Shown here one piece after another: positions 19,966 to 30,246 of a stretch of 32,321 bases of DNA (positions are counted from its first letter, which is position 1; each line of letters opens with the position of its first letter). This DNA comes from Acidimicrobiales bacterium (GTDB lineage: Bacteria > Actinomycetota > Acidimicrobiia > Acidimicrobiales > Poriferisodalaceae), in assembly GCA_004214275.1 (NCBI GenBank), contig SGYJ01000006.1:1-32321 (forward strand), given 5' to 3'. The notes under the pieces were generated by a model. The model worked only from the letters and a program-made list of their open reading frames with translations, made no database searches and was not told the origin of the DNA. The translations under genes were made by a program, and so were the position numbers.

Positions 19966-20068
19966 CTGAGTCTTCCTCTTTATGGAGTGATTTGCTTGAC
20001 TTTAGTTGGCACAGCGATACGCAAGACGTTCGACAGGTTCAACCGAGCGCCAACGGCTAGCTTCTCCG

Positions 20069-20743
20069 ATGATGAAGGCATTCTTCTCGCCGGACGGCCT
20101 GATGGGCAAGCTGTTCTTTAGAGCGGTACGTGGGTTTGTAAGAATATTTTTGTTCAGGTGGTTTCGAATGCGCGTGGAAGGCCATGAACGTCTTCAAGTG
20201 AATGGTGGAGTGATAATCGCTCCTACTCATCGATCAAACCTCGATGGTCCGCTCGTTGGAAGCTCAAGTCACCGCCGGGTGCGATATTTAGGAAAGGATT
20301 CGTTGTTTCGACCGGCAGCAGCGGGTTGGGCTATGCGCTCGTTAGGTTCGTTTCCGGTGCGGCGCGGCGAAGCCGATTTAGACGCAATGCGTGTAGCTAA
20401 AGAGATGCTTGAAGCAGGTGAATGCATGCTTGTCTTTCCCGAAGGAAGTCGACAAGAAGGAGACTCGATCGGTGAAATATATGACGGAACCGCATGGTTA
20501 GCATCGAAGGCAGGAACGCCAGTAGTACCCGTCGGTATTGCGGGCACTGAGGTGGCGATGCCAGCAGGCTCAAAGTTCCCATCACGAGTTCCAGTCACCG
20601 TTGTGGTTGGCGAAGTTCTCGATCCGCCCGAAGCAGCGGACGGGAAGAGAGTGAAACGCTCCGATCTTAAAGAGTGGACCGAACAGTTGAGGATTCGTCT
20701 GCATGAATGTCAGACGCGGGCTCGAGAGATGTTGAACGAATAA
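20069..20743 (+). CDS. plsC: 1-acyl-glycerol-3-phosphate acyltransferase-type protein (PlsC family)
   Basis: The product is about 224 residues and matches the PlsC/LPLAT family. Motif I is THRSNLD (His54, Asp59), motif II is SFPVRRGEADLDA around 94-106, and motif III is VFPEGSRQEG (122-131). A hydrophobic or amphipathic N-terminal stretch (KLFFRAVRGFVRIFLFRW) fits membrane association. It transfers an acyl chain to lysophosphatidate or a similar acceptor in the cytoplasmic membrane. The start is uncertain: ATG 20069 or 20072 begin with MMKAFF, while TTG 20006 would add 21 residues; no ribosome site decides. The stop overlaps the next gene's ATG (TAATG), so it heads a coupled four-gene run. 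The symbol refers to the family. Confidence 0.88.
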   Translation: MMKAFFSPDGLMGKLFFRAVRGFVRIFLFRWFRMRVEGHERLQVNGGVIIAPTHRSNLDGPLVGSSSHRRVRYLGKDSLFRPAAAGWAMRSLGSFPVRRGEADLDAMRVAKEMLEAGECMLVFPEGSRQEGDSIGEIYDGTAWLASKAGTPVVPVGIAGTEVAMPAGSKFPSRVPVTVVVGEVLDPPEAADGKRVKRSDLKEWTEQLRIRLHECQTRAREMLNE

Positions 20744-21234
20744 TGCGTCTTTATTGGATTGAGACGCCCACCGGACGGCTGGCAACTGCGCCAGCTCCCA
20801 GCGGAAGTGTTCTTGATCGCGAAATTAAGGATTTGTTGAACGAGAAAGTCACCAATGTTGTTTCTCTCCTGACTGACGAAGAAGTAGCCAATCTGGGTTT
20901 GCTTGCCGAACAAGACGCCCTGAACGTCGCAGGTATCGATTTCAGCAGACTCCCCATACCTGACTTTGGGATTTTGGAGGATTACAGCGACGCGAAGAAG
21001 GCCATAGATTGCGTAAAGAGCGACCTGCAACACGGTGATTCAGTAGTGATTCACTGTCGTGGAGGGATAGGACGGTCATCGACAGTCGCCGCAGCAGTCC
21101 TCACTCAGCTCGGCATCAACCCTGAACAGGCGATGGATCAAATAGCAGACGCTCGGGGGCTTAAGGTTCCGGAGACTCCGGCTCAACGAATGTGGGTGCA
21201 CGGTTACGCAGAATGGGCGGCGAAACAAGGATGA
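20743..21234 (+). CDS. Dual-specificity / tyrosine phosphatase
   Basis: The 163-residue protein carries the cysteine-phosphatase P-loop VIHCRGGIGRSS (His104, nucleophile Cys105, Arg111, Ser112). The likely general acid is Asp74 in RLPIPDFG. Length and layout fit small dual-specificity or cyclin-dependent-kinase-inhibitor-3-like phosphatases. The substrate may be a phosphoprotein, phosphoinositide or phospholipid head group. Being coupled to a PlsC-type acyltransferase makes a lipid phosphate a fair guess, not a demonstrated one. The start is ATG 20743, overlapping the previous stop as TAATG; its own TGA overlaps the next gene's ATG as ATGA. Both overlaps indicate translational coupling. Confidence 0.92.
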   Translation: MRLYWIETPTGRLATAPAPSGSVLDREIKDLLNEKVTNVVSLLTDEEVANLGLLAEQDALNVAGIDFSRLPIPDFGILEDYSDAKKAIDCVKSDLQHGDSVVIHCRGGIGRSSTVAAAVLTQLGINPEQAMDQIADARGLKVPETPAQRMWVHGYAEWAAKQG

Positions 21235-22472
21235 CTGACCAAACGCCGCAAGCTTTAAACAAGGTCCGTATCTGTGACTTCACCGGTCAACTAGCTGGTG
21301 CGGGTGCGACCAAGATTCTTGCTGCTTTCGGTGCTGAAGTAATTCGTGTTGAAGACCCAGTTCATCGCGGCAAGTGGGACATCCTGCGTGGTGTTCCCCC
21401 ATGGGTCGGCGACGCGCGCGGACTAGAAGCAGGCGGTGCGTTCAATAACCACAATGCGGGCAAGCTAGGTGTCACGTTGAATTTGCGAGACGTTCGTGCC
21501 AAGGAATTACTTCGGGAGCTCGTCGCCGTGAGCGACGCCGTTACTGAAAATTTCGCTGCGGGAGTAATGGAACGTCTCGGGTTTGGATATGAGGACTTAC
21601 GTCAGATCCGAGAAGACATCGTCTACGTGTCGAATAACGGATTCGGTGCCACGGGGCCCTATACATCGTTTAAGTCCTGGGGCCCGATTGCTCAGGCAGT
21701 ATCCGGGTTGACCTATACGTCAGGCTTGCCTGATCTGCCGCCGGCTGGATGGGGATACTCATTCATGGACCACACAGGCGGCTATTACATGGCGACCGCT
21801 GTGCTAATGGCATTACTTCATCGACGACGAACCGGAGAAGGTCAATGGGTTGACTTAGCGTGCATCGAAGCCGCCGGAACCCTCAACGGTGTCGCGACCT
21901 TGGACGCGACGGTGAACCAACGATCAATGCGACGTCAAGGTATGCCAAACAGCAATCGGTCCCAGTCTCCGAGAATGGCCCCACATGGTATCTGGCCAAC
22001 TGAAGGTCACGACAACTGGATAGCGATCGCCGTCAGGGACGACCGGGAGTGGAAAATCTTGTCGGAAATCATCGGAGAAACTTGGTCTCGCGACGATCGA
22101 TGGACCCGCCTAGAGACGCGTTTACACGATGAAGACGAACTTGAACGGCTCCTTACAACCTGGACTGTTAATCAAAACCGACACGAACTTGCTCAAGAGC
22201 TCATTGATGCTGGGGTGCCTGCGGCACCAGTCCTCAAGCCACAAGAAAGAATCGAATTTGACCAACGAACGTCAGAACTTTGGGTCACTGTCGAGCACAC
22301 TGAAGCAGGACAGTCCAAAGTAGAGGGCCTGCCAGTTCGTATGTCCGAAACACCGTGGTCCATAACCCGCGGAGCAGCCTGTCTCGGTGAACATAACCAA
22401 TACGTGTTCGGCGAGATACTTGGCCTAGGTAATGCGGAGATTGAGACACTCGCCGAAGAGGGAGTCATCTAA
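21231..22472 (+). CDS. CaiB/BaiF (class III) CoA-transferase, with catalytic Asp
   Basis: The 413-residue protein transfers CoA between acyl-CoA and a free acid. The N-terminal Rossmann half is visible in VRICDFTGQLAGAGATKILAA, the AEVIRVEDP strand-loop and FNNHNAGKLGVTLNL. The formyl-CoA transferase Asp169 equivalent is Asp180 in FMDHTGGYY, followed by ALLHRRRTGEGQWVDLA, the usual motif. The start ATG 21231 overlaps the phosphatase stop (ATGA). The next gene is a paralogue starting two bases after this stop. The acid substrate cannot be read. Adjacent genes suggest the pair serves one pathway, possibly as two subunits of one enzyme. Confidence 0.95.
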   Translation: MTDQTPQALNKVRICDFTGQLAGAGATKILAAFGAEVIRVEDPVHRGKWDILRGVPPWVGDARGLEAGGAFNNHNAGKLGVTLNLRDVRAKELLRELVAVSDAVTENFAAGVMERLGFGYEDLRQIREDIVYVSNNGFGATGPYTSFKSWGPIAQAVSGLTYTSGLPDLPPAGWGYSFMDHTGGYYMATAVLMALLHRRRTGEGQWVDLACIEAAGTLNGVATLDATVNQRSMRRQGMPNSNRSQSPRMAPHGIWPTEGHDNWIAIAVRDDREWKILSEIIGETWSRDDRWTRLETRLHDEDELERLLTTWTVNQNRHELAQELIDAGVPAAPVLKPQERIEFDQRTSELWVTVEHTEAGQSKVEGLPVRMSETPWSITRGAACLGEHNQYVFGEILGLGNAEIETLAEEGVI

Positions 22473-22474
22473 GA

Positions 22475-23704
22475 ATGACCACTACCTCACCGAATTCGGT
22501 GCTCTCCGGCTACCGAGTTATAGAACTCGCTTCTGAACGTTGCGCTCTCGCGGGAAAACTGATGGCCGATATGGGTGCAGAAGTAATCGTGGTCGAACCT
22601 CCAGAAGGGTGTAAGACTCGTTTATGGGAGCCATTCGCCGATGACGTAACAGACCCCGAAAATTCGCTCCATTGGTGGCATTACAACACATCAAAAAAAT
22701 CTGTTGCTCTTGATTTGGACACTGACACCGATGCTCAGCAATTCAGATCTCTGATCATGACTGCTGATGTAGTGATCGAAGCAGAGCCGCCGGGACGGTT
22801 GGAAGCCCTAGCTCTTGATTGGGAACAATTCCGAGAAATAAATAGTGAACTTATCTGGACCTCCGTTACTCATCATGGTCGAGACGGAACCGATCCACCC
22901 GCGACGGATCTGACCTTGTTGGCGGAAGGTGGGCCAGCTTGGTCATGTGGATACGACGATCACGAAATACCTCCGGTTCGGGGTGGGGGAAATCAGGCCT
23001 TCCACACTGCTTGCCACTACGCGGTTCCTTCTATTCTCGCCGCGCTGATGTGGCGAGAAGACTCTGGTAGGGGGCAACTAATTGACGTTTCGCTACTGAA
23101 TTCATCGAATGCAACAACGGAATTCGCGACGTTGTGGTGGCTTAATGGTGAACGACAAGTTGAACGTCAAACGGGTCGGCATGCTCTCCCGACGATGACC
23201 GAATGGACACAAATCCAGTGCGCTGATGGACGCTGGTTCAACACGGGCGTACCGCCCAGAAATAAACGGGAATTCCAAGCGCTTCGGTCCTGGATCGAAC
23301 AACTTGACCTCACTAAGGAGTGTCCCGCATACGAGATTTTGAAACTCGGAGACCAATTTGAACGGATTGGACTCCTTGAACTCGATGAGGACCCGCTGGC
23401 CGGTGAGGTGTTTCAGGCGGGAAGAGACGCGATCGAGTTCTTGGGACAACATTTGAAGGCGTATGACCTTTTTGTCGGGCTTCAACAGCGAGGTATGGCC
23501 TGCGGCATTGTCTACTCACCCGACGAAATGATTGAGGATCCCCACTTTGTCGAACGAGGTTTCCCTCAGGAAATTTTGTACGAGACTCGAAACGCCAGTC
23601 ATATCCACCCAGGAGCGCCCTACCGGTTCTCTAAAACGCCGTGGTCGACTACACGCGCCCCTCAACTGGGCGAGCACCAGGCTTTACTAGAAGACCTTGC
23701 CTGA
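22475..23704 (+). CDS. CaiB/BaiF CoA-transferase homologue lacking the catalytic Asp
   Basis: The 409-residue paralogue of the upstream CoA-transferase has the same fold: SGYRVIELASERCALAGKLMA, AEVIVVEPPEG, NTSKKSVALDLDTD and REDSGRGQLIDVSLLNS. Counting back from the G-x-G-Q-x-x-D block without gaps, the catalytic Asp of the partner (Asp180) aligns with Phe176 (NQAFHTACHYAV), and neighbouring positions H and T are kept. It is therefore likely non-catalytic or chemically different. Two-subunit class III CoA-transferases are known (BbsEF, benzylsuccinate), which makes a heteromer with the upstream product plausible. GGAG lies about 13 bases before the ATG, and the genes are two bases apart. It is the last gene of the run and convergent with the SCO6745-type gene. 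Confidence 0.93.
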   Translation: MTTTSPNSVLSGYRVIELASERCALAGKLMADMGAEVIVVEPPEGCKTRLWEPFADDVTDPENSLHWWHYNTSKKSVALDLDTDTDAQQFRSLIMTADVVIEAEPPGRLEALALDWEQFREINSELIWTSVTHHGRDGTDPPATDLTLLAEGGPAWSCGYDDHEIPPVRGGGNQAFHTACHYAVPSILAALMWREDSGRGQLIDVSLLNSSNATTEFATLWWLNGERQVERQTGRHALPTMTEWTQIQCADGRWFNTGVPPRNKREFQALRSWIEQLDLTKECPAYEILKLGDQFERIGLLELDEDPLAGEVFQAGRDAIEFLGQHLKAYDLFVGLQQRGMACGIVYSPDEMIEDPHFVERGFPQEILYETRNASHIHPGAPYRFSKTPWSTTRAPQLGEHQALLEDLA

Positions 23705-27835: not shown

Positions 27836-28696
27836 ATGAAATTCGGGTTGATGTCAGCGAATCTGATGGGGAATGTGGAAGGCGTTGCGGCAGGAGAGTT
27901 GGCGCGCACGGCAGAAGAAGTTGGGTTCCATTCAATATGGGCCGTCGAACATGCAGTAGTCCCGGTGGAGTATGCCTCTACATATCCATACGACGAAGGT
28001 GGGCGACTGTTCAAAGGGGCTAGTCAACTGGACCATTCCGACCCGCTGATATGGCTGGCGTTCGCTGCTGCTGCTACAACCAAAATCCGTCTTGCCACTG
28101 GAATACTTATTCTTCCCCAACGCAATCCTCTTATTGCGGCGAAGGAAATTGCGAGCCTTGACCGTCTAAGCGACGGCCGGCTAGATCTAGGCATCGGAGT
28201 TGGATGGCTTCGAGAAGAATTTGATGCGCTAGGAGTCCCTTTTGAGGCACGCGGAGCTCGAACGGATGAATACCTGAGAGCCTTAAGGGTTCTGTGGTCT
28301 CAAACCGAAGCTGAGTTTCATGGCGAGTTCGTTGACTTTGCACCCGTGTACTGTCAACCCAAACCGACACAACAACCGATACCAATACTGGTTGGAGGCC
28401 ACTCTGATAGAGCGGCTCGCAGAGCTGGTGAACTGGGCGATGTGTTCTTCCCTGCGGAACGACCCGTTGAAACACTCACGTCGTTGCATTCGCTAGTGAA
28501 GGAATACGCAGAGAAAGCAGGACGTGACCCGTCTCGCATTGAACTATGGACCTCTTCGACTGGTGACCGCGATCATCTAGATCAGCTAGTAGAGGCTGGA
28601 GTCACCCAAGTAATGGTTCCAGCTCGACCACCTGAACAGCTTGACGACCGTTATTCGCAACTAATTGCCGACTACGACTCAGAGGATGCCTCATGA
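27836..28696 (+). CDS. LLM-class F420-dependent oxidoreductase
   Basis: This 286-residue protein has the luciferase-like TIM barrel. Its start, MKFGLMSANLM, leads into GFHSIWAVEH (family: G-x-x-S-x-W-x-x-E-H). TKIRLATGILILPQRNPL (85-102) and SDGRLDLGIGVGWLREEF are typical of the F420-using class, as is PKPTQQPIPILVGGHS later on. It should reduce or oxidise a C-O or C=C bond with coenzyme F420; flavin use cannot be excluded. The ATG follows GAAAGGTTGATCT, a good site. The TGA overlaps the carboxyltransferase start (ATGA), so the two are translationally coupled. Confidence 0.94.
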   Translation: MKFGLMSANLMGNVEGVAAGELARTAEEVGFHSIWAVEHAVVPVEYASTYPYDEGGRLFKGASQLDHSDPLIWLAFAAAATTKIRLATGILILPQRNPLIAAKEIASLDRLSDGRLDLGIGVGWLREEFDALGVPFEARGARTDEYLRALRVLWSQTEAEFHGEFVDFAPVYCQPKPTQQPIPILVGGHSDRAARRAGELGDVFFPAERPVETLTSLHSLVKEYAEKAGRDPSRIELWTSSTGDRDHLDQLVEAGVTQVMVPARPPEQLDDRYSQLIADYDSEDAS

Positions 28697-30246
28697 CCGA
28701 TCCAGACCGAACCTCAGATCTACGTGCTCGAGCAGAGCGTGTTCGAAATGAAATGGGAGGTGTAGAAAAAGTTGCAAAAATGTCTGATGAAGGAGACCGG
28801 ACTATCCGCCAACATATTGACAACTTTCTTGACGACGACTCCTTCAGAGAAATAGGTACCTTCAGCCGGTCACTTCGGGTAGAGGAACGAGAAAAGACGC
28901 CCGGGGACGGAAAAATAGGCGGGCATGGGACCGTGGACAGCCGTCCTGTCGCAGTCTTCGGTGACGACATCACCGTCTATCGCGGGTCAAGCTCAATTGT
29001 TGGTACTCGAAAAGAACATCGTTTATACGAAAGAGCTATGGCAATGGGCATACCCATTGTTCATTTTGGCGAAACTGGCGGCGCCCGAATACCGGACACT
29101 ATGGGAGCTGAAGGAATCAGCGAGCCGGGTGGCTTGTTTGAGCTTGCGAAACGACAGCACAGGGTTCCTATGGCGACGATGGTCACTGGACAGTCGTTCG
29201 GTGGCTCATCGTTCTTGTCTGCACTGTCTGACTATGTCGTGATGGTACGCGGGTCCTGTCTCGCCGTTACGTCGCCGAAAGTATTCGAGATCGCTACCGG
29301 GGAGGTCATATCTTTTGAAGACGTCGGCGGAGTCGATGTCCACGCAAGAAAAACCGGTCAAATCGATCTCGGAGTTGAATCAGATCAAGAGGGCTATGAC
29401 GCAATACGAAAGTGGTTGTCGTATCTACCGAGCAATGCGTGGGAGATAGCACCGCGAAACGAAACCCTAGGCTCATTGGATCACGATCCCGGCCTAGCTG
29501 AACTTGTCCCGGCGAAACGGACACGGGGCTACGACATGCGACGAGTCGTGGAACGGATCGTCGACACCGATTCGATGCTAGAAATCCAACCCCTCTATGC
29601 GCGCAACGTTGTTTGTGGCATGGCCAGACTTAATGGATTTTCTGTCGGGGTTATAGCTAACAACCCAATGTTTGGGGCAGGGACTTTAGACCCACAGGCA
29701 TGTCACAAAATCATACGATTAGCAACCGTCTGCGATTCATACAACATCCCCATCATTTTTCTTGCTGATGTTCCCGGCTTCATGGTTGGAGAACGAGTGG
29801 AACACGAACTGATGTTGCATTGGGGAATGAGAATGATGCACGCGCTCCAAAACTGTTCAGCACCGACATTGACTGTCTGTATTCGTAAAGCCTTTGGATT
29901 GGCGTGGCAGGCCATGAATGGCTCTCAGATGCCGGCACTCGGGGTGTACAGCTGGCCGGGAGCCGAAATTGGGTTCATGGATCCCGAGGTTGGGGTAAAT
30001 GTGGCATTCGGCTCAAAACTCGCCCGCATAGACGACAGTGAGACTAGGGAATCCGAGCGGGTCGCCCTGGTGCGAGAAGTAGGTGAATCGACGAACCCCT
30101 ATGAAGCAGCTGGAACCATGAGGATCGACGAAATTATTGACCCCGGCGACACTCGAGGTGTTCTGGCACATGATCTGGAGATGTTGGCTCACCGTTCAGT
30201 GCCGCCACCCGAGGCACGACCTTTGTCCTATTGGCCGACCTGCTAA
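28693..30246 (+). CDS. Second acyl-CoA carboxyltransferase (AccD/PccB-like beta subunit), orphan
   Basis: The 517-residue carboxyltransferase is shorter than the one at 13916 and of the PccB/AccD type. The N-half oxyanion site is FGETGGARIPDTMGAEG (125-141), and the second half has IPIIFLADVPGFMVGERVEH followed by an alternative FMDPEVGVNVAFGSKL where actinobacterial PccB usually has M-G-x-x-G-A-V-N-I-I-x-x. No biotin carboxylase lies beside it, so it would have to use the alpha subunit at 11920 or one elsewhere. Another possibility is a biotin-independent use of the CT fold. Its ATG overlaps the LLM stop (ATGA), with GAGG about 8 bases upstream. A zinc dehydrogenase follows after 37 bases. 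Confidence 0.93.
   Translation: MTDPDRTSDLRARAERVRNEMGGVEKVAKMSDEGDRTIRQHIDNFLDDDSFREIGTFSRSLRVEEREKTPGDGKIGGHGTVDSRPVAVFGDDITVYRGSSSIVGTRKEHRLYERAMAMGIPIVHFGETGGARIPDTMGAEGISEPGGLFELAKRQHRVPMATMVTGQSFGGSSFLSALSDYVVMVRGSCLAVTSPKVFEIATGEVISFEDVGGVDVHARKTGQIDLGVESDQEGYDAIRKWLSYLPSNAWEIAPRNETLGSLDHDPGLAELVPAKRTRGYDMRRVVERIVDTDSMLEIQPLYARNVVCGMARLNGFSVGVIANNPMFGAGTLDPQACHKIIRLATVCDSYNIPIIFLADVPGFMVGERVEHELMLHWGMRMMHALQNCSAPTLTVCIRKAFGLAWQAMNGSQMPALGVYSWPGAEIGFMDPEVGVNVAFGSKLARIDDSETRESERVALVREVGESTNPYEAAGTMRIDEIIDPGDTRGVLAHDLEMLAHRSVPPPEARPLSYWPTC

Follow-up and report, generated by a model that had tools for sequence, protein, structure and literature searches.

Class III CoA-transferases form an anhydride with a catalytic Asp and then an aspartyl-CoA thioester, in an interlocked dimer (PMC9813914), and the family is normally homodimeric. 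Two-domain type III CoA-transferases, of which 2,401 were counted in 2017, carry tandem class III domains in one chain, and in PtmU4 and its homologues a conserved Asp has been reported in the C-terminal domain (PMC6006322). The nearest structurally solved relative of the proteins described here is BbsEF (PDB 9fn0, 9fol, 9fun), a plain CoA-transferase; entry 9fn0 contains both chains of succinyl-CoA:(R)-benzylsuccinate CoA-transferase. Entry 9fol carries the title 'D178-CoA adduct'. Position 178, counted along the matched chain, corresponds to the Asp of 9fn0_B, and in 9fn0_A the same column holds Tyr171. The adduct together with Tyr171 suggests that BbsEF itself uses one nucleophile per heterodimer. 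We take chain B to be BbsF and chain A to be BbsE; a search for an open paper on the 9fn0 and 9fol structures found none.

The gene pair and its catalytic column

The window, the whole 32,321-nucleotide stretch of Acidimicrobiales DNA that was analysed, encodes two adjacent class III proteins, A and B, in the following arrangement.

20006..20743, + strand: PlsC-type acyltransferase gene; overlaps the phosphatase gene; synteny cluster 5, in 17 loci
20707..21234, + strand: dual-specificity-phosphatase-like gene; 4-base overlap (ATGA) with A; synteny cluster 9, in 15 loci
21231..22472, + strand: A, putative catalytic class III CoA-transferase subunit, BbsF-like, 413 aa; PF02515, 303.8 bits
21768..21770, + strand: GAC codon of the predicted catalytic Asp180 in A; aligned to Asp178 of the Asp-bearing BbsEF chain
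22475..23704, + strand: B, putative non-catalytic class III CoA-transferase subunit, BbsE-like, 409 aa; PF02515, 210 bits
23000..23002, + strand: TTC codon of Phe176 in B, at the catalytic column of the 45-row alignment

A and B are two separate open reading frames with the Asp-bearing one first. The TAA stop of A occupies 22470-22472 and is followed after 2 bases by the ATG of B, in agreement with the gap given in the first-pass annotation, and the start ATG of A overlaps the stop of the preceding gene. Judging from gene spacing, the phosphatase-like and PlsC-type genes are probably co-transcribed with the pair; both neighbours are kept only in its near relatives. Both proteins are full-length members of PF02515, matched by Pfam across all 366 positions, and are only 30% identical to each other, indicating that B is not a recent copy of A. 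A reading of either protein as an alpha-methylacyl-CoA racemase was rejected, as racemases came well behind CoA-transferases among the matches of each.

We aligned all class III domains of the genome with both solved BbsEF chains (45 rows). Asp180 of A (..YSFMDHTG..) and Phe176 of B (..GNQAFHTA..) fell in the same column, so the earlier placement of these two residues at the class III catalytic position holds. Among homologues (counts taking in the window proteins), this column contained Asp in 74 of 74 aligned A proteins and in 0 of 81 B proteins, so that in no B protein did an Asp align to the catalytic site. B proteins instead carried Y (35), F (26), L (11), I (3), V (2) or, once each, T, A, M and G, making the residue aromatic in 61 of 81, and Gln174, two positions ahead of Phe176, was invariant among all 81. 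An acidic residue was present within 6 positions of the site in a single B protein and absent from the other 80; a relocated nucleophile Asp in B was rejected, none lying near the site. The invariant Asp161 and Asp162 of B are about 14 residues upstream, in a stretch that aligns with the family-wide GxxDGPP-type loop. Judged by the catalytic Asp that marks class III membership, A has Asp180, B lacks an equivalent, and the pair taken whole has one.

The best PDB match of A was 9fn0_B (E 1.4e-63) and that of B was 9fn0_A (E 4.9e-43), which also came first in a Foldseek search with the predicted model of B (pLDDT 82.5). The predicted monomer model of A was poor (pLDDT 65) and usable only as confirmation of the fold.

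Pairing and gene neighbourhood across genomes

Using B as the query against species-representative genomes, we obtained 80 homologous loci. In 76 of these, A and B share a strand, always with A as the upstream gene, which usually lies no more than 72 bases from the first aligned residue of B. Two unpaired-looking loci (L095 and L131) are at contig ends; L136 is on a contig equal in length to that of G024, where A sits 5 kb upstream across a norCBQD-like cluster; and in L126 a divergent fused CoA-transferase lies directly upstream of B, followed by a contig end. Truly unpaired homologues were rejected, the cases being contig ends (L095, L131) or insertions (G024/L136 and L122, probably also L126). 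Thus, rather than homologues in which the two genes are never together, which the first-pass annotation had named as evidence against a joint function, we found A and B together wherever upstream DNA permits a test, except at a few loci where other genes were later inserted. Of 198 sampled genomes from the same order, 27 contained A. B passed the chosen cut-off in 26 of the 27; in the remaining one (G045) B fell below the E-value cut-off, which accounts for its apparent absence. By record titles, the hits of the B scan come from Acidimicrobiia, Myxococcota and other 'Deltaproteobacteria', Binatia, Chloroflexota (Dehalococcoidia) and Gammaproteobacteria. One carrier, L147, is titled a Klebsiella pneumoniae MAG, probably a mislabelled bin.

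The inserted genes differ between loci. In G024 (L171:4417-9379) a nitric-oxide-reductase-like cluster (cytochrome c, COX1-family/NorB-like, CbbQ/NorQ, VWA) separates the homologues of A and B. At L122:2386-5016 the intervening gene encodes a divergent fused CoA-transferase, and such a gene is next to B, upstream and at a contig end, at L126:988-3486, probably in the same arrangement.

We also analysed the flanking genes. Near relatives keep the block DLH/MaoC/acyltransferase/phosphatase/A/B/HTH_67, its genes being named after those of the window that correspond in order and length. The flanks of distant loci vary, with short-chain dehydrogenases, enoyl-CoA hydratases, amidohydrolases, AMP-ligases and luciferase-like oxidoreductases, and the 141 flanking ORFs from 21 distant loci plus one interrupted locus indicated no single pathway or acid, pointing only to acyl-CoA catabolism. 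Elsewhere in the window (27836-30243), a carboxyltransferase gene (methylmalonyl-CoA decarboxylase alpha-like) comes immediately after an F420-type luciferase-family oxidoreductase gene, and genes similar to these two recur near A and B in other Acidimicrobiia.

Partnered and solo class III domains

The genome, a 1.69-Mb draft that is 78% complete, has 45 PF02515 matches, including nine two-domain class III fusions, one of them truncated at the end of its contig, and a second adjacent pair. Each of the nine fusions has exactly one catalytic Asp, in its C half, and the second adjacent pair has one too. Unpaired paralogues that reach the site carry the Asp in 20 of 20 cases; the only other domain without the Asp (L029) is truncated at a contig end. 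Consistent with this pattern, fused proteins adjoining the pair in other genomes had the Asp in one half only in 6 of 6 cases, as did a seventh fused ORF downstream in L126, although this one overlaps B. That both roles occur fused in one chain speaks strongly, if indirectly, for their acting together. The fusions (L001-L009, on G000 contigs C4, C39, C48, C52, C68, C69, C83 and C90) represent a very high dosage for a small draft genome.

In a careful, unrooted maximum-likelihood tree of 61 domains, built without L008, L009 and further very long rows, the Asp-less halves (B, 9fn0_A, the fusion N-domains and the Asp-less member of the second pair) formed one clade (support 99/95), and the Asp-bearing partners, including A, formed a separate one (100/99). 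After removal of 25 columns around the catalytic site and of the longest rows, both groups stayed single (99 and 98). The 18 solo paralogues fell outside the partnered clades, and A was not among them. BbsEF branched deep in both clades, which argues for common ancestry with A and B and not for orthology. It is about an even bet, in our judgement, that the asymmetric class III enzymes on this tree (A/B, BbsEF and most fusions) go back to one ancient nucleophile loss in one dimer partner, after which the pair became obligate, and that the window pair belongs to a multi-phylum subfamily acting on a new acid, possibly in a reaction beyond plain CoA transfer. The two halves of L008 fell among solo enzymes in a quick tree. 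The Asp-less half of this fusion (L008:306-2369) has Ser at the site and clusters, on long branches, close to the Asp-bearing half, and L008 may, on these sequences, represent an independent loss of the Asp.

A probable heteromeric enzyme and its known relatives

Altogether, these data suggest that A and B constitute a single BbsEF-type heteromer, a class III (CaiB/BaiF, Frc-type) CoA-transferase with A as the catalytic subunit, a reading to which we give a probability of roughly 0.88. A BbsEF-type heteromer with one acting subunit had been hypothesised from the window, and the subunit-wise BbsEF matches, the conserved pairing, the asymmetric same-genome fusions and the single clade for each role support it. 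The asymmetry of the pair is real, but the pair is less unusual than had been suggested, because an asymmetric BbsEF structure has been solved and asymmetric two-domain enzymes have been published; the kind is thus already known, although we found no characterised member of the A/B subfamily itself. We infer from sequence a physical A:B heteromer with one active site per pair, its CoA-transferase activity and its substrate class; the heteromer may be obligate and its substrate an undescribed acid.

Such an enzyme would adopt the Frc fold, in which two interlocked rings form the dimer and the active site lies where they meet. A would supply the sole nucleophile, Asp180 passing through an acyl-aspartyl anhydride to an aspartyl-CoA thioester, and B, having lost its nucleophile (Phe176 here, normally an aromatic residue), would most likely complete and shape the pocket and stabilise the ring pair. 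The donor would probably be succinyl-CoA or another acyl-CoA, and the acceptor a carboxylic acid entering acyl-CoA (beta-oxidation-like) catabolism.

A variant that keeps the heteromer, and is not exclusive with it, gives the pair a combined reaction on a CoA ester. Two asymmetric two-domain relatives do exceed CoA transfer, DddD as a transferase plus lyase and PtmU4 in sulfur transfer (PMC6006322), and enoyl-CoA hydratases and amidohydrolases are among the neighbours in some genomes; however, BbsEF performs CoA transfer alone and neither protein offers specific sequence evidence of lysis or sulfur transfer, making this variant improbable, if the strongest of the alternatives. Somewhat less probable still are two independent homodimers encoded in one operon, with A as an ordinary class III enzyme and B as one with another activity or a relocated nucleophile: this would fit the homodimeric habit of the family and the many invariant residues of B (including Asp145, Asp161 and Asp162), which place it under its own constraint, but not the near-complete lack of acidic residues around the B site, the Asp-less BbsEF chain and fusion N-halves among the homologues of B, the pairing maintained across phyla or the position of A in the partnered clade apart from the solo paralogues. 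The view of B as a decaying copy or a pseudogene of A, which its missing Asp might prompt, is refuted by conservation: homologues of B are full length, show 48-96% identity over several phyla and, in a set of 36 diverse sequences, have 49 invariant columns.

For CoA-transferase-rich genomes, the heteromeric reading supplies a rule: Asp-less class III proteins are to be read as partners and not as broken enzymes, and expressed with their Asp-bearing neighbour. It also ties BbsEF and the two-domain enzymes to a single asymmetric lineage, and draws attention to a conserved enzyme, mainly of uncultured environmental bacteria, with co-expression as a way to look for its acid.

Compared with known systems, A shares the fold, the CoA chemistry and the catalytic Asp of the single-chain enzymes (Frc, YfdW, YfdE, SUGCT, Rv3272). 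Unlike the proposed A/B heteromer, those are homodimers with the Asp in both chains, and solo paralogues lie outside the partnered clades. Two-domain enzymes match the roles of A and B, with tandem class III domains and one Asp, and the same-genome fusions fall in the clades of A and B (one is ~35% identical to A in its C half and ~37% to B in its N half); DddD and PtmU4 are likened by published architecture, the tree holding same-genome fusions and not their sequences. A and B, in contrast, are separate genes in the reverse order, and the Asp-bearing gene coming first argues against a split fusion of known orientation. BbsEF differs in sequence (identity just 34-35%) and in gene order, the catalytic gene coming first here, unlike in bbsE-bbsF as we take that order to be. 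Benzylsuccinate CoA-transferase was not assigned as the identity of the pair, no bss/bbs-type cluster having turned up in those window genes that were scanned with Pfam. Like A and B, however, BbsEF consists of two homologous class III chains with the Asp in one only and an aromatic residue at that site of the other. Each of its chains is the best match of one window protein, and the corresponding subunits fall in the same clades.
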